NCBI RefSeq assembly: GCF_900129905.1
Contig: NZ_FQXG01000007.1
Location: 248,001-312,000 of the forward strand
Length of the DNA stretch: 64,000 nt
Direction of reading: 5' to 3'
Source of the DNA: Ferrimonas marina
GTDB lineage: Bacteria; Pseudomonadota; Gammaproteobacteria; Enterobacterales; Shewanellaceae
A program made the position numbers and the translations under genes. The notes below the pieces were generated by a model. The model made no database searches, was not told the origin of the DNA, and saw only the letters and a list, made by a program, of their open reading frames with translations. Every line of letters begins with the position of its first letter. The first letter of the stretch is position 1. Below are positions 7,334 through 52,904 of this stretch, piece by piece.

Positions 7334-8536
7334 CTAGGCGTAGTAATCGATGGCGCCGTCGGCGCGACGGCTCTGCCAGGCGATCTGTTCAGTCTCTTCG
7401 CTGTCGCTATCCTGGGCCTCGCCGGCAAACGCCTCCTGGCCCGGGTTGCGGTCAGGATCACCGTGCTGGATGTCGGCTTCCGCCAACTGCAGCCCCTGCT
7501 GCTCCAGCATCTCCCGCAGCCTTGGCAGGGCCTGCTCCAACATCTCCCGGGCCTGGGCATTTTGCGCCACCACTTGCAGGTGGGCCTGGTCGCCGTTCAT
7601 CTGCAGCCGTACCTGCAGGGCGCCCAGCTCCGGCGGATCCAGCCGCAGCTCAGCGCTGAGCCGGTCGGTGTTGATCATCACCATCAGCCGCTCTCGCAGC
7701 TCCGGGGCCAGGCGATCCGCCGGCACCGGCTGACGCAGGGCAGCCTCAGCCCCGGCGGCATTACGTTGGGCGGTGGCCTGCAACTGTGCCTGCTGTTGCT
7801 GCTGACGCTGCAGGGCCAGCCCCTCCTCCACGCTGGCCTCTTCCAGTAGTGGGTTGCTGACCTCCAGCGCCGCTTGGTTATCTGCTATCGGAGCCGCTGC
7901 GGCCAGGCCCATAGCCGGTAGCCCTTTGTTCAGTTCAGCGCCCTTGCTGGTACCATCCAGCAGTTCAGCGCTAAGCCGGCCACTGCCCTCCAGCGAAGTG
8001 CCAAAATGAGCCTGGCCAAGTCGGTTCTTGGCGCCAGGCAGAGGCTCGGCCTCCTCGGTCGTCATCATGCCCGCGGGGCTGGCATTTGCCGCCTTCAGCT
8101 CGGCGTCGCTGAGCGTATGACCGGTCGAGACCGCGCCAGCCAACGGATTGAGGGTCGGCTCGACTTCTGAGCTCAACTGCTCACCCGGCTGCGTCCCTTC
8201 CTTGGTGACAGGCTCGTCGCCACTGTCGAGGACCGCCGGCCTTTCAGCCCCGTCGTTCAGCGCCGCCCCTTGCTGAGCCAACTGGCTGAGCAGGGCATCC
8301 GGGTCTTCGACGGCAAGCTCTTGCCCCTCGGCAACTGCCGCCTCACCCTCGGACAGCGCCTCCCCCTCCGACAGCATCTCAGGAGCCAACTGCGGTGACT
8401 CCAGCTTCGCCTCCCCTTCCGGGTCCGCCATTAGGCTGGAGACCAGATCCGCGAAGCCTCCGCCCTCCGGGGCATGGCCGCTGCTGTCGGTGGTCACGCC
8501 CTTGGTCGGGGTGGGTACCAAAATCTCTGTCAACAT
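7334..8536 (-). CDS. fliK: FliK, hook-length control protein
   Basis: FliK measures hook length and triggers the FlhB specificity switch. I place the start at ATG 8536 (MLTEILVPTPTK, preceded by AGAAGTG) rather than the GTG 36 bases upstream. The 400-residue product has a long, low-complexity acidic N-terminal ruler. Its compact C-terminal Flg_hook domain (about 285-365) carries the diagnostic ELRLDPPELGALQVRL motif. Only that C-terminal part is conserved in the family, as expected. Upstream lies a cluster of four sigma-54-like elements, so this gene probably starts its own transcript running through flhB. Confidence 0.93.
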   Translation of the reverse strand: MLTEILVPTPTKGVTTDSSGHAPEGGGFADLVSSLMADPEGEAKLESPQLAPEMLSEGEALSEGEAAVAEGQELAVEDPDALLSQLAQQGAALNDGAERPAVLDSGDEPVTKEGTQPGEQLSSEVEPTLNPLAGAVSTGHTLSDAELKAANASPAGMMTTEEAEPLPGAKNRLGQAHFGTSLEGSGRLSAELLDGTSKGAELNKGLPAMGLAAAAPIADNQAALEVSNPLLEEASVEEGLALQRQQQQQAQLQATAQRNAAGAEAALRQPVPADRLAPELRERLMVMINTDRLSAELRLDPPELGALQVRLQMNGDQAHLQVVAQNAQAREMLEQALPRLREMLEQQGLQLAEADIQHGDPDRNPGQEAFAGEAQDSDSEETEQIAWQSRRADGAIDYYA

Positions 8537-41757: not shown

Positions 41758-41944
41758 GATAAATCTCTCTTAAATTTGGGGTTAAGCCTCCACGTACTCC
41801 ATAGCCCGACCCCGAAGGGCACCCCGCACTATGTGTCGGTACGTGTGTGGTTTATGAGTTAATTTTAACGATATAATGACGCCCATTCCGCTGGGCCTGG
41901 CGCAAACGCCAGCCCCCTGCCCGAAGGCATGGCAATGAGAGTCG
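41758..41944 (-). ncRNA. rpsB leader (t44/S2-type autoregulatory RNA), by position
   Basis: The predicted rpsB transcript has a leader of about 187 bases between its promoter and the rpsB ATG. In enterobacteria this same map-rpsB interval holds the t44 RNA element, where S2 represses its own operon. The leader is GC-rich with possible hairpins (GGCTGGCGTTTGCGCCAG and CCCTTCGGGG). I rely on position and length; the structural match has not been checked. Confidence 0.45.
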
Positions 41945-46313: not shown

Positions 46314-47738
46314 CTAATCCGAACGGGGCTTCAGCGCCTGCTGCAGGCGGGCCCGGACACCATCCGCCTGGGTACCGACCACCAACTGAACCCCTTCGCC
46401 GTGCTGGATCACCGCCTTGGCACCCAACCGCTTAAGCGCTGCCGGGTCCAATCGTTCCGGCTGATACAGCGACAGCCGCAGCCGGGTCAGGCAGGCGTCC
46501 AGGCTCTTGAGGTTCTCTGCCCCGCCCAGCGCCGCCAGGATCGCCTCGGTGGAGGCCTTGAAGAAGCGACTCTGCCGATGGCGGGTGCGGCCCGGTGTCG
46601 CCAGATCAAAGCGCAGGATCGCCACCCGGAACAGGGTGTAGTAGAGCAGCGCGACCGGCAAGCCAAGCCAAAGCAGCGGCCAGGGATCGCGGCTGATCTG
46701 CAGGTAGAGCAGAAAATCCAGCATGCCATGGGAGAACACGATGCCATGGTGTGCCCCCACGTATATCGCCAGCATGTAAGCCAGCCCCGTCAACAGCGCG
46801 TGCAGCAGGAACAGCCCCGGCGCAATAAACAGGAAGGCAAACTCAATGGGTTCGGTCACCCCGGTGAGCCAGCAGGTCAGCGCGGCGGAGATCATGATTC
46901 CCCCGGTCTGGCGACGCTGTCGCGGCTCGGCACAGTGCCAGATAGCCAGGGCCGCTGCCGGTAGCCCCCACAGCTTCACCAGGTAGCCCCCCGCCAGATG
47001 GCCGGCGTTGGGATCGCCGGCAAGAAAGCGGGTGATCTCGCCGGTTACCGGGTAGTTGGGGCCGGCGTTGTACTGACCAATCTCGTAGAAGAACGGCAGG
47101 TTCCAGATGTGATGCAGCCCCAGCGGAATGAGCAATCGCTCAACCGTGCCATACAGGCCCCAGGCCAGCATCGGCTGCTGGAACAGGGCCCAGTCGGAGA
47201 AGCGGTCAAGCAGGGACTGCAGCGCCGGCCACAACATGGCCAGCACGGCCCCCAGCAGCATCCCCAGCGGTACATTGACCAGCGGCACCAGGCGACGCTC
47301 GGAGAAAAAGGCAAAGGCCTCCGGCAACCGGATCTTGTGGAAGCGTCGGTAGGCGGCGCTGGTTTGCAGGCCGATCAGCACGCCCCCCAGCACTCCGGTA
47401 TTGAGGGTCTGAAAGCCCAGTACCGGCTGGGTTGGCCAGCCAAAAGACTGGGCCAGGGCCGCCATGGTGGCTAACAGTGCACCGTAGCCGGTCACCGCCG
47501 CCAAGGCCGCGGTGCCATCCTGATGGCAGAAGGTCAGCGCCACCGCCACGGCAAACATCAGCGGCAACAGCTCAAATACCGAGGCGCCGGTATAGAGCAG
47601 CAGGTTAGTCAGCAGCTCAGGGAAGAAGGGAACGGCGTTACCCAGCCCCACCAGCAGGCCGGCCACCGGCAGCACCGCTACCGGCACCATCAACGCCTTG
47701 CCCACCCGCTGCAGGCGATGAAACAGCCGCTGTGGCAT
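46314..47738 (-). CDS. PTS glucose-type EIICB component
   Basis: A 474-residue phosphotransferase transporter resembling PtsG (477 residues in E. coli). The membrane EIIC domain (about 1-370) takes in the sugar; it has ten or so helices and the GITEPIEF-like motif (GVTEPIEFAF). The cytoplasmic EIIB domain (about 395-470) has the phosphorylated cysteine in SLDACLTRLRLSL. No EIIA domain or gene is present, so a separate EIIA-Glc must serve it. ATG at 47738 shares a base with the yqcA stop. Sugar (glucose or N-acetylglucosamine) is inferred from family only. Confidence 0.85.
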   Translation of the reverse strand: MPQRLFHRLQRVGKALMVPVAVLPVAGLLVGLGNAVPFFPELLTNLLLYTGASVFELLPLMFAVAVALTFCHQDGTAALAAVTGYGALLATMAALAQSFGWPTQPVLGFQTLNTGVLGGVLIGLQTSAAYRRFHKIRLPEAFAFFSERRLVPLVNVPLGMLLGAVLAMLWPALQSLLDRFSDWALFQQPMLAWGLYGTVERLLIPLGLHHIWNLPFFYEIGQYNAGPNYPVTGEITRFLAGDPNAGHLAGGYLVKLWGLPAAALAIWHCAEPRQRRQTGGIMISAALTCWLTGVTEPIEFAFLFIAPGLFLLHALLTGLAYMLAIYVGAHHGIVFSHGMLDFLLYLQISRDPWPLLWLGLPVALLYYTLFRVAILRFDLATPGRTRHRQSRFFKASTEAILAALGGAENLKSLDACLTRLRLSLYQPERLDPAALKRLGAKAVIQHGEGVQLVVGTQADGVRARLQQALKPRSD

Positions 47739-48211
47739 CAGGCGTTGGCGACCGCCGGTTGCTCCAGGGCCGCCAGCCACTGAGGCAGCCAGGCCAGGGC
47801 TTCCACCTCGGGCTCGAAGGTTTCGCAGGCGTCGATCTGCAGACGTTCACCGACCCGCTGTGCGGTCAGTTCGGTCAGCAGCTCATCAAACTGACGGCCG
47901 GCGCCGCAGTAGGTCTCGCCGTAGCTACTGTCGCCCAGTGCCACCACGCCGTAGCGCAGGTTGGGCAGCAGCGGGAAGCGCTCCTTGAGATCGAAGAACA
48001 GCGGGGCCAGCTCATCGGGAATATCACCGGAGCCGGTGGTGGAGGTGATCACCAGCAGGACCTGGTCGGCAATGGCGCTGATCGCCGCCGCCGTGCGCTC
48101 TTCAATAAACTGTACCTGGTGACCCTGCTCTTTCAGTGCCGCTGCGACCTGGTCGGCCACGTGTTCAGCGGCACCGTAGACCGTCCCGACCAGCAAATGA
48201 ATGGATGACAT
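47738..48211 (-). CDS. yqcA: YqcA, flavodoxin
   Basis: A 157-residue flavodoxin with the FMN phosphate loop GTVYGAAEHVA (8-18) and FMN-binding segments STTGSGDIPDE and NLRYGVVALGDSSYGETYCGAG. The latter fit YqcA better than MioC. In E. coli yqcC, truC and yqcA are neighbours; here a 165-bp gap separates it from truC and the gene instead overlaps the PTS gene. It would act as a one-electron carrier. Confidence 0.85.
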   Translation of the reverse strand: MSSIHLLVGTVYGAAEHVADQVAAALKEQGHQVQFIEERTAAAISAIADQVLLVITSTTGSGDIPDELAPLFFDLKERFPLLPNLRYGVVALGDSSYGETYCGAGRQFDELLTELTAQRVGERLQIDACETFEPEVEALAWLPQWLAALEQPAVANA

Positions 48212-48376: not shown

Positions 48377-49165
48377 TTACGGTGCAGAAGACGGAACTGC
48401 CCCTGGCCCTGCCGCGAGTGCGTCACTCCTGATCTGGTAGTACTCCTGCTGCTGCGGCCAGCCAAATCGAGCCAGCAGCGGCTGCCACTGACTCTCCAGT
48501 GGTGCCTCGATCCACAAGGGTGTTCCACTGACCGGGTGCCTCAGTCCCATCCCCTTGGCCACCAGCCATAACCTCTGCAGATCAAACTCGTTGCGGTACA
48601 GCTTGTTGTGATGGCGATCGCCGTGGGTGGTATCGCCGATGATGGGATGGCGCAGATGGGCCATATGGCGTCGTAGCTGGTGCTTACGCCCGGTCTTGGG
48701 CATCAGGTGCATCAGGGTATAGCGCGCACTGGGGTAACGACTCACCGGGATCGGCAGCTCCACCTGTCGCAACGGGCGATAATCGGTTACCGCCTCCTGC
48801 GGGGCCTTGTCGGGATCGGCGTGCTTATCGGCGATCTTATCCAGCTCCTCCTTGAGTGGGTAATCCAGGCTACCGGATTGGTTCAGGTAGCCCCGCACCA
48901 AAGCCAGGTAGTGCTTCTCCACCTGGTGTGCCTCCAGCTGGGCCGACAGCGTCCGTGCCACCTCGGAGCTTTTGGCAAACAGCAGCACCCCTGAGGTCGG
49001 GCGATCCAGCCGGTGCACCGGAAACACATGACAGCCCACCGCATCCCGGGTCATCTGCATGGCAAACTGGGTTTCATGGCGATCCAGCCAGCTGCGGTGC
49101 ACCAGCAGCCCCGACGGCTTGTGCACCGCCACCAGGTGCTCGTCCTCGTACAGGATCTCAATCAC
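48377..49165 (-). CDS. truC: TruC, tRNA pseudouridine(65) synthase
   Basis: TruC makes pseudouridine 65 in tRNA-Ile and tRNA-Asp. The 262-residue protein (E. coli 260) has the RluA-type catalytic motif VHRLDRPTSGVLLFAKS with the active Asp, and RYTLMHLMPKTGRKHQLRRHMAHLRHPIIGD. The start is GTG at 49165 (GTG ATT GAG) with GGAGG nine bases upstream; earlier codons fall inside yqcC. Overlaps yqcC by eight bases. Confidence 0.93.
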   Translation of the reverse strand: MIEILYEDEHLVAVHKPSGLLVHRSWLDRHETQFAMQMTRDAVGCHVFPVHRLDRPTSGVLLFAKSSEVARTLSAQLEAHQVEKHYLALVRGYLNQSGSLDYPLKEELDKIADKHADPDKAPQEAVTDYRPLRQVELPIPVSRYPSARYTLMHLMPKTGRKHQLRRHMAHLRHPIIGDTTHGDRHHNKLYRNEFDLQRLWLVAKGMGLRHPVSGTPLWIEAPLESQWQPLLARFGWPQQQEYYQIRSDALAAGPGAVPSSAP

Positions 49166-49496
49166 CGCTGGCTCCCTCCGGTTGTGACAAGGCACGATCC
49201 AGCTGGGCCAGCAGGTCAACCACCCCATCCAGCCCCGACCGCCCTCGCCACGACTCCTCCGCCATCGGCGCCACCGCTACCTTGGTAGGCAGCGCCTGGC
49301 CAGCCTCCATCAGCTGCTGCAGCCGCGGCAGGTAGAGGAACTGAACCCACTGCTCAAACCTCAGGGTATCGCAGGCAAAGGGCTGTCGACTGGCCAGCGC
49401 CTCGGCACTGGGGGGGCTGCTTTGCCAGAGCTGGGCCTGCTGCAGTGCCGCCTGTAACTGCGCCAGCAAAGAGTGGATGAGATGCCTGTCGTGCAT
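49158..49496 (-). CDS. yqcC: YqcC family protein (DUF446)
   Basis: A 112-residue helical protein of the YqcC/DUF446 family, recognised from LLAQLQAALQQAQLWQ, FACDTLRFEQWVQFLYLPRLQQLM and its position next to truC. Function unknown. ATG at 49496 has AGGACA in front. It is divergent from the DUF3549 gene. Confidence 0.88.
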   Translation of the reverse strand: MHDRHLIHSLLAQLQAALQQAQLWQSSPPSAEALASRQPFACDTLRFEQWVQFLYLPRLQQLMEAGQALPTKVAVAPMAEESWRGRSGLDGVVDLLAQLDRALSQPEGASGD

Positions 49497-49592
49497 GGGT
49501 TGTCCTGGCTGTGAGCGAATGGGCGGGGATAATACCATTGCCTGTCCACAGGCCCTATAATGGCGCCCCCAAATCCCTGCCGGAGCGCCCTG

Positions 49593-50609
49593 ATGGACAC
49601 CATTACCACCCTGGATCAATTCTTAACCCAAGCGGGCACTCAGTACCAAGTGTACGATCTTGGCCGCCGGGTGGTGCCCCTGGACCGTCCCCTGTTCGGC
49701 CAGATCGAATCCGGTCATCAGCCCTACCCCTTCCCCCGTGCCGGCCACGCCTGGCTGGGTCTGCTGTTCTGGAATCCTCAGCTGTCGGCCCAGCATTACG
49801 TCTGGTTCCTCAAGCTGCCGCTGGATGAGCGTGGCCTGATCAACCCGGCGGCACGTAACCAGTTTCTGCAGATGGTGGTGGAGGCCCTGGGCCAGGACCC
49901 GGCGGCGCCCTTGAGTGAAGAGCAGCAGGAACGACTCAACAACAACCCCTTCACCTTCACCCCGAGCCAGGAAAAGATGGCGATGTTCCATGCCCGGGTC
50001 CGCGGTCTGCTGGCACAACCGGCCAGCGTCCACTTCGAATCGGTACAGCACTACCTGTTGGGCCAGCGGCCCTGGGACCAGTGGCAACAGCTTGGACTGC
50101 AGGGTTTTGCCGATATGGCCTGCCGGCTCACCGCCCAGGAGGAGGCCGACGTGGTAACGGCGATCGAGAAGATGCCGATGGCACCGCTGCAGGCCTGGGC
50201 TAGCATGCAGGAGCACACCTCGGTCAGCGATGCCCTGGCTCAAGCCTGGTTGCAACGGGCGGGCCGATGTGACGACGATGCCAGCGAGCGGTTGTGCCTG
50301 CGGGCACTGGCCGGCAATCCGCAGTACTGCCGCCAAGGGGTTGATCTTTTGTTGGCAAAATCCGATCTGGATCCCGAGGCACTGATCGCCATCGCGGCAC
50401 GGATGTGGCATGGTTTGGATGAACAGCGGGTCGGTCTGATGCTGGAGAAGATGGCACTGCACCCCAGCCAGCTGTTCAATCAACTCTACCTGGACCTGGT
50501 GGCCATCCCTGCCTTGCGCCCAGCGGTGCTGGCCAAGATGCGTGACCCCCAACGTTCGCCGGCCCTGGCCCAGGCCATCGGCCGATTGATGACCGCCTTG
50601 CGAGGATAA
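49593..50609 (+). CDS. DUF3549 family protein
   Basis: A 338-residue soluble protein of unknown function, starting MDTITTLDQFLTQAGTQYQVYDLGRRVVPL, which I recognise as DUF3549 from Shewanella, Vibrio and relatives. The C-terminal half is built of helical repeats and looks HEAT-like (LALRALAGNPQYCR..., ..IAARMWHG..). No catalytic motif is evident. It is two bases before DUF3301 and divergent from yqcC, a conserved neighbourhood. Confidence 0.8.
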   Translation: MDTITTLDQFLTQAGTQYQVYDLGRRVVPLDRPLFGQIESGHQPYPFPRAGHAWLGLLFWNPQLSAQHYVWFLKLPLDERGLINPAARNQFLQMVVEALGQDPAAPLSEEQQERLNNNPFTFTPSQEKMAMFHARVRGLLAQPASVHFESVQHYLLGQRPWDQWQQLGLQGFADMACRLTAQEEADVVTAIEKMPMAPLQAWASMQEHTSVSDALAQAWLQRAGRCDDDASERLCLRALAGNPQYCRQGVDLLLAKSDLDPEALIAIAARMWHGLDEQRVGLMLEKMALHPSQLFNQLYLDLVAIPALRPAVLAKMRDPQRSPALAQAIGRLMTALRG

Positions 50610-50611
50610 CC

Positions 50612-51022
50612 ATGCTAAACCTGTTCGACCTGATGCTGCTGATGCTGTGCGGCCTGGTGGGGATGCTTTTCTGGCAGCTGCGCCAGATCTCCGAAGGGGC
50701 CGAGTTTCACGCCCGTCGTCTGTGCCAGCAACGTCGCCTGCAGATGCTCAACGTCGCCCGGGTCCAGGCACGCTTGGGCCGCATCCCCGGCCAGGGGATT
50801 GGCTGGAAAACCCGCTACCAGGTGGAGTTCAGCACCGACGGTCTCAATAGCCTCAAGGCCGAACTGGAGTTTCTCGGCAATCGGCTGAAGGACACCCAGA
50901 TGCCCTTTTACCCGGAGCCGGAGTGGCAGCAGGCGCCACAATCCCGTGGTCGCGTCGGCATGGGCAGCTGCGGTGGTGGCAGCTGTGCGCCCAAGAAAAA
51001 CTGCGGAACCGGTTGCCGTTAA
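50612..51022 (+). CDS. DUF3301 family membrane-anchored protein
   Basis: A 136-residue protein with one N-terminal membrane helix (FDLMLLMLCGLVGMLFWQL, about 5-23), a conserved basic segment (ARRLCQQRRLQMLNVARVQ) and a Cys/Gly-rich tail (CGGGSCAPKKNCGTGC) with four cysteines. The family is DUF3301, function unknown. The Cys tail might bind a metal, which is inference. Confidence 0.8.
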   Translation: MLNLFDLMLLMLCGLVGMLFWQLRQISEGAEFHARRLCQQRRLQMLNVARVQARLGRIPGQGIGWKTRYQVEFSTDGLNSLKAELEFLGNRLKDTQMPFYPEPEWQQAPQSRGRVGMGSCGGGSCAPKKNCGTGCR

Positions 51023-51024
51023 GG

Positions 51025-51060
51025 ACAAAAAAGAGAACCGCAACAGTCACCTGTTGCGGT
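51025..51060 (-). terminator. Intrinsic terminator of Csr-type RNA copy 1
   Basis: On the minus strand ACCGCAACAG-gtga-CTGTTGCGGT followed by TCTCTTTTTT. Perfect 10-bp stem. Confidence 0.85.
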
Positions 51061-51406
51061 CCCGGGTACAACGTCTTGCGTCAACATCCACTGTTAACTC
51101 AGTGCTCCCTGCTTCATCCTTGAGTTGAATGGCATCCTGCCTCTTCCCTGACCGATCCCTCGGCCTCCCTGTACTCCAGCGCGGGTAACTCCTACCCAGA
51201 AACCATTCCTTGGTCACTCTCGCCACTGCATCCTGCAACTCCCTGGCGAAGCCCTGTCAAACGTACTGGTATCCCTACCACGACCCAATCCTTCGGGCCG
51301 AACACCTTCCTCCATGAAGGGGTCCATCGTCATCCCTGAACTCGTAATGGGGTGGCTTGGCTTCCTGCTAAATCACCCGCCAAATCAACGTTTCCTGTTC
51401 CGACAG
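51026..51406 (-). ncRNA. CsrB/CsrC-type CsrA-titrating small RNA, copy 1
   Basis: About 381 bases on the minus strand contain 22 GGA motifs between 51060 and 51412, and none in the 60 bp beyond. Many sit in loops of perfect small hairpins: GGGTA-GGAGT-TACCC (51183-51197), TGGTA-GGGA-TACCA (51267-51280), GGC-AGGAT-GCC and TGC-AGGAT-GCA. CAGGATG/CAAGGATG are the known CsrA-binding repeats of CsrB. The RNA ends at an intrinsic terminator (stem 51037-51060, T run to 51026). A candidate promoter TTGTCC-N16-TAAACT lies at 51413-51440. Length is like E. coli CsrB (369). No protein-coding frame is credible here. Confidence 0.8.
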
Positions 51407-51412
51407 GGATAG

Positions 51413-51440
51413 AGTTTAGATGAGCGCCGGGTGAGGACAA
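51413..51440 (-). promoter_or_regulatory. Candidate promoter of Csr-type RNA copy 1
   Basis: On the minus strand TTGTCC (51435-51440) and TAAACT (51413-51418) are 16 bp apart, giving a start near 51406, just before the first GGA motif. Match to consensus is moderate. Confidence 0.45.
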
Positions 51441-51560
51441 GACGGTCAGACAGGGGGGCGCTACCGTCAAAGCCCCGAAAAGGGCAGAAGTGGAATTCAA
51501 TATCATATTCATATCAGTGACTTAGATGTAAAAAGTCAGCATCGGGCCTGGCGCTAAAGG

Positions 51561-51575
51561 GGCGATCTCTTACAC
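51561..51575 (-). promoter_or_regulatory. UvrY/GacA-like box for Csr-type RNA copy 1
   Basis: On the minus strand GTGTAAGAGATCGCC, about 160 bp upstream of the predicted start. It contains the TGTAAG half of the TGTAAG-N6-CTTACA operator of GacA/UvrY; the second half is degenerate. The identical 15-mer precedes copy 2. The stretch between the two RNA genes also has an AT-rich run at 51630-51672 and nothing else I can identify. Confidence 0.6.
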
Positions 51576-51721
51576 CGAGTCGAGAGATCACAGGCCGCTT
51601 TTAAGGCCAGAAAACCTGCCCTCGCTTGTGGATTTTTTCTTTTTATAACATGTACTTATTTTAAAAATGCATGTTCAGATAGCGACAGGCTATGAGCTAT
51701 GAGGCGGGGCGGTGGCAACCA

Positions 51722-51757
51722 CAAAAAGAACGGGCCGCAATCCGAAGATTGCGGCCC
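51722..51757 (-). terminator. Intrinsic terminator of Csr-type RNA copy 2
   Basis: On the minus strand GGGCCGCAATC-ttcg-GATTGCGGCCC followed by GTTCTTTTTG. Eleven perfect pairs capped by a stable UUCG tetraloop. Confidence 0.9.
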
Positions 51758-52077
51758 TTTTAGTGCTGTTAAGCTGTCCTGCTTAAATTAGTGCCACTCC
51801 CTGGCCCATCCTTGCGTAGTATCTGCTAATCCGTGCGTCGTCCCTGGCTGATCCTTCAGCTTCCTTGTACTTGCGTACTTGCCTTCCTGGCAGGGTAATC
51901 TTCCTGTTTACCCAACACGGTCTCCCGTGTGTTCCATCCTTGCGGCCTCATCCTATCCGCCGGCACCCTTCATCAAGCCCCACTCCCTGTGGAAGCCCGT
52001 TCCAGTGCCTGACATCCCTCATGACCCAACTCCATGTCAGTGCCAATTCGAGATGTTCGCCCGTTCCTTGAGCTTGT
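51722..52077 (-). ncRNA. CsrB/CsrC-type CsrA-titrating small RNA, copy 2
   Basis: About 356 bases on the minus strand carry 20 GGA motifs. Perfect hairpins with GGA in the loop include CCAC-AGGGA-GTGG (51980-51992), GCCA-GGGAG-TGGC (51793-51805), CTGA-AGGA-TCAG (51848-51859) and GCC-AGGAA-GGC. The RNA ends at a strong UUCG-loop terminator (51732-51757). It starts near 52077 after the promoter TTGTGA-N16-TAGAAT. Organisation is parallel to copy 1, but the sequences are not simple copies. In the family such RNAs sequester CsrA. Confidence 0.8.
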
Positions 52078-52083
52078 AGTTAA

Positions 52084-52111
52084 TTCTATTACTTCGTTTT
52101 TTTCTCACAAG
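52084..52111 (-). promoter_or_regulatory. Promoter of Csr-type RNA copy 2
   Basis: On the minus strand TTGTGA (52106-52111) and TAGAAT (52084-52089), 16 bp apart, with start near 52077. Confidence 0.55.
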
Positions 52112-52252
52112 CCCCAATGTGAACCCAGATCACAGTGAAAGCCAAAGTGTGAACGAAGTGATGCGGCGCAAACCATTGGTTTAAACAGGTTTTAACATCA
52201 TTTGCCCGGTTATCGCTGGTACCAATAGTGGAGTTTGCCCAACCCCACTATG

Positions 52253-52267
52253 GGCGATCTCTTACAC
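52253..52267 (-). promoter_or_regulatory. UvrY/GacA-like box for Csr-type RNA copy 2
   Basis: The same 15-mer GTGTAAGAGATCGCC as before copy 1, here about 183 bp upstream of the predicted start and five bases from the stop codon of the GNAT gene. E. coli csrB and csrC also have their UvrY boxes far upstream. Confidence 0.6.
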
Positions 52268-52271
52268 GCCA

Positions 52272-52904
52272 CTAGGAGATCGACGCTTCAGCCAGGGAGA
52301 GCCGATAGAGATCCCCCTCCACTCGGCCCACCTTGAGGTTGGCGAGGAACTGGAATCCCTGTTGCTCAAACATCGGCACCAACGCCTTTTGATACACCAT
52401 GGCGGCCAGGGCCGGTACCTGCTCTTCACGCTGCCAGCGAGTCAGGGCTGCCAGCAGCTGCGCACCATAGCCTCGACGCTGGTAAGCCGGTGCGACCGCG
52501 ATAAACTGGATCAACCAGCTTGGCCCCGCCCCCAGGCTGTCCATCACATCCTCTTCCCGGGCCATCCATTGGCGGGCACCACTCCAGCCGGTACCCAGCG
52601 CCATCTTCAGGCGCCAGTTCCAGAAGCGGGACTGGCCTAAGGGGTAGTGCTGATCCAGCAAGGAGGCCACCGCCACCAAGGTGCCCTCCACCTCCAGGCC
52701 CAGGAAGCGCTGTTGACGCTGCCACATCTCCTGCAGCTCCTCCCGGATCGCCGCCCGCAGGCGTTGTTCGTAGTCCTGACTGGGCAGGACGGCACGAAAG
52801 AAGGGATCATCACGATAGGCATTTAGCAGCAGTGAGGCGGTCAGCCGCAGGTCGTCGGCAGACAGGTAACGTAAGGTGGCAGCAGCGGCAGAGGCCGGTT
52901 CCAT
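52272..52904 (-). CDS. GNAT family N-acetyltransferase
   Basis: A 210-residue acyltransferase with the acetyl-CoA-binding motif A (VAPAYQRRGYGAQLLAALTRW, about 139-159) and the preceding beta strand LIQFIAV. The substrate cannot be told. It is divergent from the DUF2789 gene across 139 bp that hold no feature I recognise. Confidence 0.82.
   Translation of the reverse strand: MEPASAAAATLRYLSADDLRLTASLLLNAYRDDPFFRAVLPSQDYEQRLRAAIREELQEMWQRQQRFLGLEVEGTLVAVASLLDQHYPLGQSRFWNWRLKMALGTGWSGARQWMAREEDVMDSLGAGPSWLIQFIAVAPAYQRRGYGAQLLAALTRWQREEQVPALAAMVYQKALVPMFEQQGFQFLANLKVGRVEGDLYRLSLAEASIS

Follow-up and report, generated by a model that had tools for sequence, protein, structure and literature searches.

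Does the 1,249-nt gap between a DUF3301 gene and a GNAT acetyltransferase gene of Ferrimonas marina (positions 51023-52271 of the window, the whole 64,000-nt stretch of DNA analysed here) contain two regulatory RNA genes of the CsrB/CsrC type, and how would two such genes have come to lie side by side? The initial annotation had described a 1.25-kb interval without genes carrying two units of about 380 and 356 bases on the same strand, each with at least 20 GGA motifs. The list of open reading frames of the window contains only short ORFs in the gap, and both units were recovered with coordinates that agree within a few bases and with the motif numbers claimed (Table 1). With a probability of about 95%, we take them to be two tandem paralogous csrB genes at the ancestral csrB locus, each having its own terminator and its own promoter, which UvrY would activate, and giving rise to an RNA that would bind CsrA. 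The anatomy, conservation, covariation and synteny of the units, their paralogy and the presence of CsrA and UvrY in the genome were all computed.

Table 1. Features of the csrB locus and of its surroundings (window coordinates)
Feature	Position	Strand	Details
csrB unit 1 (u1), GNAT-proximal	51722..52076	-	predicted RNA of ~355 nt, 20 GGA, 12 ANGGA
csrB unit 2 (u2), DUF3301-proximal	51025..51406	-	predicted RNA of ~382 nt, 22 GGA, 12 ANGGA
u1 promoter, TTGTGA-16-TAGAAT	52083..52110	-	generic scan and conservation in relatives
u2 promoter, TTGTCC-16-TAAACT	51413..51440	-	conserved in 8/8 u2 rows; missed by the generic scan
u1 intrinsic terminator	51732..51757	-	generic scan; conserved in relatives
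u2 intrinsic terminator	51034..51063	-	generic scan; conserved in relatives
Putative UvrY/GacA-type box of u1, TGTAAGAGATCGCCCATA	52249..52266	-	starts at -190; left half intact, right half decayed
Putative UvrY/GacA-type box of u2, TGTAAGAGATCGCCCCTT	51557..51574	-	starts at -168; left half intact, right half decayed
DUF3301 gene	50612-51022	+	borders the gap on the u2 side
GNAT acetyltransferase gene	52272-52904	-	borders the gap on the u1 side
Flavodoxin (YqcA position), syntenic marker	47738..48211	-	PF00258; order as in E. coli
TruC-type pseudouridine synthase, syntenic marker	48377..49228	-	PF00849; order as in E. coli
YqcC-type protein (DUF446), syntenic marker	49158..49619	-	PF04287 matches residues 49-142

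Motifs were counted on the minus strand, from 52077 to 51726 for u1 and from 51405 to 51026 for u2. Dinucleotide-shuffled versions of the two units contain on average 13.2 (u1) and 14.0 (u2) GGA, with a standard deviation of 2.4-2.6, and the 20 and 22 GGA observed exceed these means by about 3 standard deviations. The excess reaches about 5 standard deviations for ANGGA, present 12 times in each unit against shuffled means of 3.8 (u1) and 3.3 (u2; standard deviation 1.7 for both). When 350-nt segments from the two strands of the 64-kb window are ranked, the places of the two units take the first two positions for GGA (22 and 20, followed by 18) as well as for ANGGA (12 and 12, followed by 8), and the spacer between the units has zero GGA on the minus strand.

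Assignment of the units to the CsrB family was addressed with two covariance models. Genome-wide, the Rfam CsrB model RF00018 matches u1 with 29.2 bits (E 5.4e-6) and u2 with 19 bits (E 0.0067), and these are its sole matches at E<=10 in the 4.98-Mb genome (103 of 156 first-look candidates scored). The check proposed in the initial annotation thus finds both units, at scores below the curated cut-off of 71 bits, which is an annotation threshold and not a biological definition. The E value of u2, about 0.007, is modest on its own because at E<=10 the model also matches in 8 of 14 control genomes, exceeding the cut-off in one, that of E. coli, the family's home. At the curated cut-offs the Rfam search of the window gives no match in the gap; its sole match is a t44 RNA at 41781-41867 (minus strand, 76.6 bits). 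Rfam matches to Whalefall-1 and NEAT1_2 were taken as chance. Over 19 sources, the RF00018 cut-off was reached by three of the four single-copy Ferrimonas (L016, L017 and L019, 84-86 bits) and by none of six tandem Ferrimonas, eight Shewanella and one Paraferrimonas. We read the scores below the cut-off as the narrowness of the Rfam model. By the same counts, the duplicated Ferrimonas csrB copies look more diverged than the single ones.

The second model, R1, was built from 20 Ferrimonas rows including the two of the window, and its own rows match by construction. On the window genome R1 gives strong full-length matches at u1 and u2 only (138 and 99.7 bits), and no third csrB was found among the 150 of 1147 candidates scored. 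Nine further matches reach E<=1, with 14-22 bits. Seven are confined to the terminator end of the model, from position 95 onwards, and one of the seven lies on the strand opposite the u1 terminator; the remaining two are stretches of 51 and 39 nt, one of them within u2.

The initial annotation had stated that many of the GGA motifs lie in hairpin loops. According to the local hairpin criterion (a stem of 4 bp or more, G-U allowed, closing a loop of 4-8), 8 of 20 GGA in u1 and 9 of 22 in u2 do so, against shuffled means of 2.3 and 3.5. These counts were reached by 0/300 shuffles for u1 and 2/300 for u2, and the corresponding fractions by 9/300 and 27/300. Hairpin enrichment per GGA on the single sequence is clear for u1 and weak for u2; the fold of u1 is more stable than that of its shuffles (z -3.91) and that of u2 only moderately so (z -1.96).

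Comparison across relatives gives stronger evidence. Nine helices hand-picked from RNAalifold predictions were tested, comprising 18 of 38 pairs in u1 and 23 of 42 in u2, and eight of them, all but helix 3 of u1, have a loop that carries a GGA. In the 8-species alignment of u2, 13 of 23 pairs have changed on both sides and 91.8% of the cells are paired, compared with 32-49% when the helices are slid; in u1 9 of 18 pairs have changed on both sides and 94.9% of the cells are paired, compared with 25-53%, percentages that favour the tested helices because these were selected from the same alignments. Three of the nine u1 pairs changed on both sides fall in the helix that has no GGA. The covariation score was matched by 0/500 shuffles for u2 and u1 alike, and the number of pair types is not clearly above shuffles, 179/500 and 59/500 being as high. 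Alignment A2 omits the near-duplicate rows G007 and G011. For G002 and G008 the start of the RNA was placed by analogy, because the promoter search was mis-sited in these two and in G011. Display of GGA in hairpin loops thus appears to have been preserved by compensatory changes in both units.

Each unit has its own predicted promoter and terminator, as had been claimed, and here it is conservation that counts. The totals of the generic scan are near chance (one promoter against 0.8 expected, three terminators against 1.7 expected), and the u1 promoter and both terminators are credible because they are conserved in relatives. Both predicted intrinsic terminators are strong, one closing each unit. 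In the 14 aligned Ferrimonas loci, TTG and TA.A.T precede u1 or the single unit in 14/14 rows and CTTG in 12/14; CTTG and TA...T precede u2 in all eight rows, that of the window included.

Upstream of the promoters lie putative boxes of the UvrY/GacA type, whose consensus is given as TGTAAGN6CTTACA (PMC3171408, in part). At both window units only the left half-site is kept, TGTAAGAGATCG. Where the promoter search worked before u1, in 11 of 14 rows, the half-site begins between -188 and -191; before u2 it begins between -164 and -168, between -188 and -191 or in both ranges in 8/8 rows, although the short pattern also matches elsewhere in some rows. Both halves of the box are recognisable in three relatives (G003, G006 and G013), at the same place as in the window, and a box with at most two mismatches was not found at loci L057 and L058. 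Measured identically, the box of E. coli csrB is located at -191. The genome encodes one copy of csrA, and one gene exceeds the cut-off of the UvrY model NF007018 (368.4 bits, cut-off 280).

The neighbouring genes point in the same direction. The Ferrimonas order flavodoxin-TruC-YqcC-(DUF3549-DUF3301)-csrB-csrB corresponds to yqcA-truC-yqcC-csrB of E. coli, and because of this match the tandem site looks like the ancestral csrB position. The YqcC-type gene probably starts further inside than called. E. coli CsrB resembles the window units in the arrangement of these genes on one strand, in the position of its box and in its 22 GGA and 369 nt; it differs in being single at the locus, in having 7 ANGGA and in the absence of DUF3549 and DUF3301 genes between yqcC and csrB. 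CsrC, the second such RNA of E. coli, is encoded elsewhere. Taken with the RF00018 matches, the motifs and the covariation, the synteny with E. coli csrB upholds the initial assignment of the units to the CsrB/CsrC type.

How widespread the pair is was determined in a survey that kept 80 of 208 relatives and in which nine named Ferrimonas loci (L056-L064) were replaced by 14 same-genus genomes. A unit was called from a terminator preceded within 300 nt by six or more ANGGA, so weak copies may be missed, and at some one-unit loci the GNAT border is absent or the contig edge was reached. Two units were found in 55 of the 85 loci, one in 26 and none in four; three of the latter stop less than 650 bases past DUF3301, and in the fourth (L078) no unit was seen over 1.9 kb. 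The initial annotation had implied that such pairs are rare, a view that does not stand: 47 of 69 Shewanella/Parashewanella loci (18 others having one unit and four none) and eight of 14 Ferrimonas loci (the other six having one) are paired, and adjacency has been published for S. putrefaciens (PMC3171408, in part). Both Paraferrimonas loci have one unit. The place of u1 is filled in 13 other Ferrimonas and that of u2 in seven. At E<=1e-4, R1 finds two units in eight of the 14 Ferrimonas genomes, one in six and never a third; in the two Paraferrimonas genomes it finds a unit at the csrB locus (51 and 25 bits) and no second full-length unit, and in Shewanella sp. ANA-3 two units. At the Shewanella loci examined the pair sits between the GNAT and DUF3301 genes, as in Ferrimonas, with the same order and strand.

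Some Shewanella loci deserve separate mention. In L111, L112, L118 and L122 a distance of 2.4-3 kb separates the two units, suggesting an insertion like the transposase of S. oneidensis MR-1. Shewanella benthica DSM 8812 (L079, about 7469-8264, minus strand) carries an outsized CsrB with approximately four GGA-rich internal repeats of 87-97 nt. Motif counts are also raised in L075, L092, L093 and L114.

Local duplication followed by divergence had been proposed for the window pair, and the paralogy is visible in relatives, u1 and u2 of G003 being 77% identical over 164 nt. When u2 was used as a DNA query against the window genome, u1 was not recovered at E<=0.001, because the copies are too diverged. 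When the duplication occurred was approached with trees of the RNAs, one including the terminator and made from 66 hand-chosen units out of 136, the other free of the terminator and made from all 136, and with a tree of seven neighbouring proteins from 32 loci, rooted on 16 Shewanella loci. One account, the less probable, is that the pair is ancestral to Ferrimonas and Shewanella and that Paraferrimonas and the second Ferrimonas clade each lost a copy. Locus, order and strand are identical in both genera, as this account would have it, and gene conversion between tandem copies, which is possible behind the tree pattern, could make paralogues seem younger than they are. Moreover, R1 scores the Paraferrimonas loci low, so a diverged second copy could be missed there. 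With the terminator included, however, all 22 Ferrimonas units fall on one side of a branch with support 100/99 (66 rows). In the terminator-free tree (136 rows), in which several long branches were flagged, this grouping has 81/69 and is not firm, and u1 (F1) and u2 (F2) no longer form one group each. Trees that pair F1 or F2 with one Shewanella copy (S1) fit worse (AU p 0.042 and 0.044 with 66 rows, 0.002 and 0.031 with 136), with p values that are soft because the groupings were defined after the first tree was seen. They speak against one-to-one orthology between the Ferrimonas and Shewanella copies, a result weakened by possible gene conversion and by the shortness of the alignments. The neighbouring-gene tree also speaks against an ancestral pair, since it sets the single-copy lineages between the tandem groups: Paraferrimonas comes next to the root group, followed by the single-copy and the tandem Ferrimonas clades side by side, with branches at 100/100. 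For loss of u2 in the single-copy Ferrimonas versus their split before the duplication, the AU p values are 0.44 and 0.50 (66 rows) and 0.32 and 0.33 (136 rows), and the RNA trees favour neither.

Judged by the trees of the RNAs and of the neighbouring proteins, which lean this way, tandem duplication occurring separately in Ferrimonas and in Shewanella would be the simpler reading. We give an even chance to the broader proposal that csrB was tandem-duplicated at least twice, in Ferrimonas and in Shewanella, each copy having its own UvrY-controlled promoter and some single-copy sisters keeping a more canonical CsrB, and that selection repeatedly favoured two separately tunable adjacent CsrA sponges.

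Two further explanations concern the units themselves. In one, only one unit is an active csrB and the other a decaying copy. The window u2 is indeed the most diverged Ferrimonas copy, with 19 Rfam bits, the lowest R1 score of 22 (99.7 bits) and a flagged long branch of 0.74; yet it retains box, promoter, terminator, 22 GGA and hairpins that covary in the 8-species alignment, and eight species retain both units, which makes decay quite improbable. That the segments are chance purine-rich or coding sequence and no sRNA genes can practically be dismissed: the gap has ORFs of 60-68 aa, nothing speaks for a protein-coding reading of these short frames, and Rfam is silent there at its curated cut-off, but chance GGA richness is ruled out by counts above the dinucleotide shuffles and by the top ranks in the window, promoter, terminator and box positions are conserved, compensatory changes occur, and the place is that of E. 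coli csrB.

Returning to two functional tandem csrB genes, the following circuit can be proposed. UvrY, of the BarA/UvrY system, would activate each promoter from the putative box located about 170-190 bp upstream; a separate promoter would drive each csrB and a separate intrinsic terminator would end it. Each RNA would offer many GGA, several of them in conserved hairpin loops, and could bind several CsrA dimers, and the RNAs of u1 and u2 would jointly determine how much CsrA is free. That both units are transcribed, bind CsrA and depend on UvrY, and that they may divide the labour, is what we infer. Graded titration of CsrA by the pair, as put forward in the initial annotation, is plausible. 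Its link to the motility and PTS/carbon genes of the window was not borne out, nothing having been found that connects them to the pair, and a nearby PTS gene is no evidence of a link because the sRNA acts in trans through CsrA.

The closest known system is that of Shewanella, where, as in Ferrimonas, two csrB genes lie together among shared neighbour genes. In S. oneidensis MR-1 csrB1 and csrB2 are separately transcribed, with a putative UvrY box each, and a transposase lies between them, unlike in Ferrimonas, whereas they are adjacent in S. putrefaciens CN-32 (PMC3171408, in part). Loss of BarA or UvrY lowers their RNAs more than 100-fold; when cells grow in complex medium, csrB2 is 3-10-fold above csrB1, and growth phase changes csrB1 and hardly csrB2 (same source, in part). 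Either gene alone restores siderophore production in the Shewanella double mutant, hence both are functional (PMC11045786, in part). With about 325-382 nt, the copies of Ferrimonas are shorter than Shewanella csrB1 and csrB2, which are predicted at 420 and 421 nt, and, by the trees, their duplication is perhaps a separate one. By analogy with S. oneidensis, the benefit of a second copy probably lies in controlling the two differently.

More distant parallels exist. Pseudomonas brassicacearum rsmX-1/rsmX-2 is likewise a tandem duplicate of a GacA-controlled Rsm sRNA, of the RsmX type of about 110 nt, with 75% identity, in another genus and at another locus (PMC7911923, in part). In Aliivibrio salmonicida csrB2/csrB3 the copy adjoins its parent and is ascribed to duplication, but among the species those authors studied this recent event is seen in A. 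salmonicida alone, and the remaining vibrio copies belong to different synteny groups (PMC6262261, in part). The three Csr sRNAs of Pseudoalteromonas were rejected as a tandem precedent, since Pf2 and Pf3 adjoin different genes (PMC11882849, in part). A full-text search, whose coverage leaves out most subscription journals, found no paper on Ferrimonas CsrB.

Because the pair had already been described in the sister genus Shewanella, the Ferrimonas find is sound but largely ordinary; with it, the version of the BarA/UvrY-Csr circuit that has paired csrB genes would now include Ferrimonas. At its cut-off the Rfam CsrB model overlooks all eight Shewanella and six tandem Ferrimonas loci tested, and annotation relying on that cut-off would therefore probably miss them. 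If the duplications were separate, Ferrimonas and Shewanella would constitute a natural repeat experiment on the keeping of several CsrA sponges.
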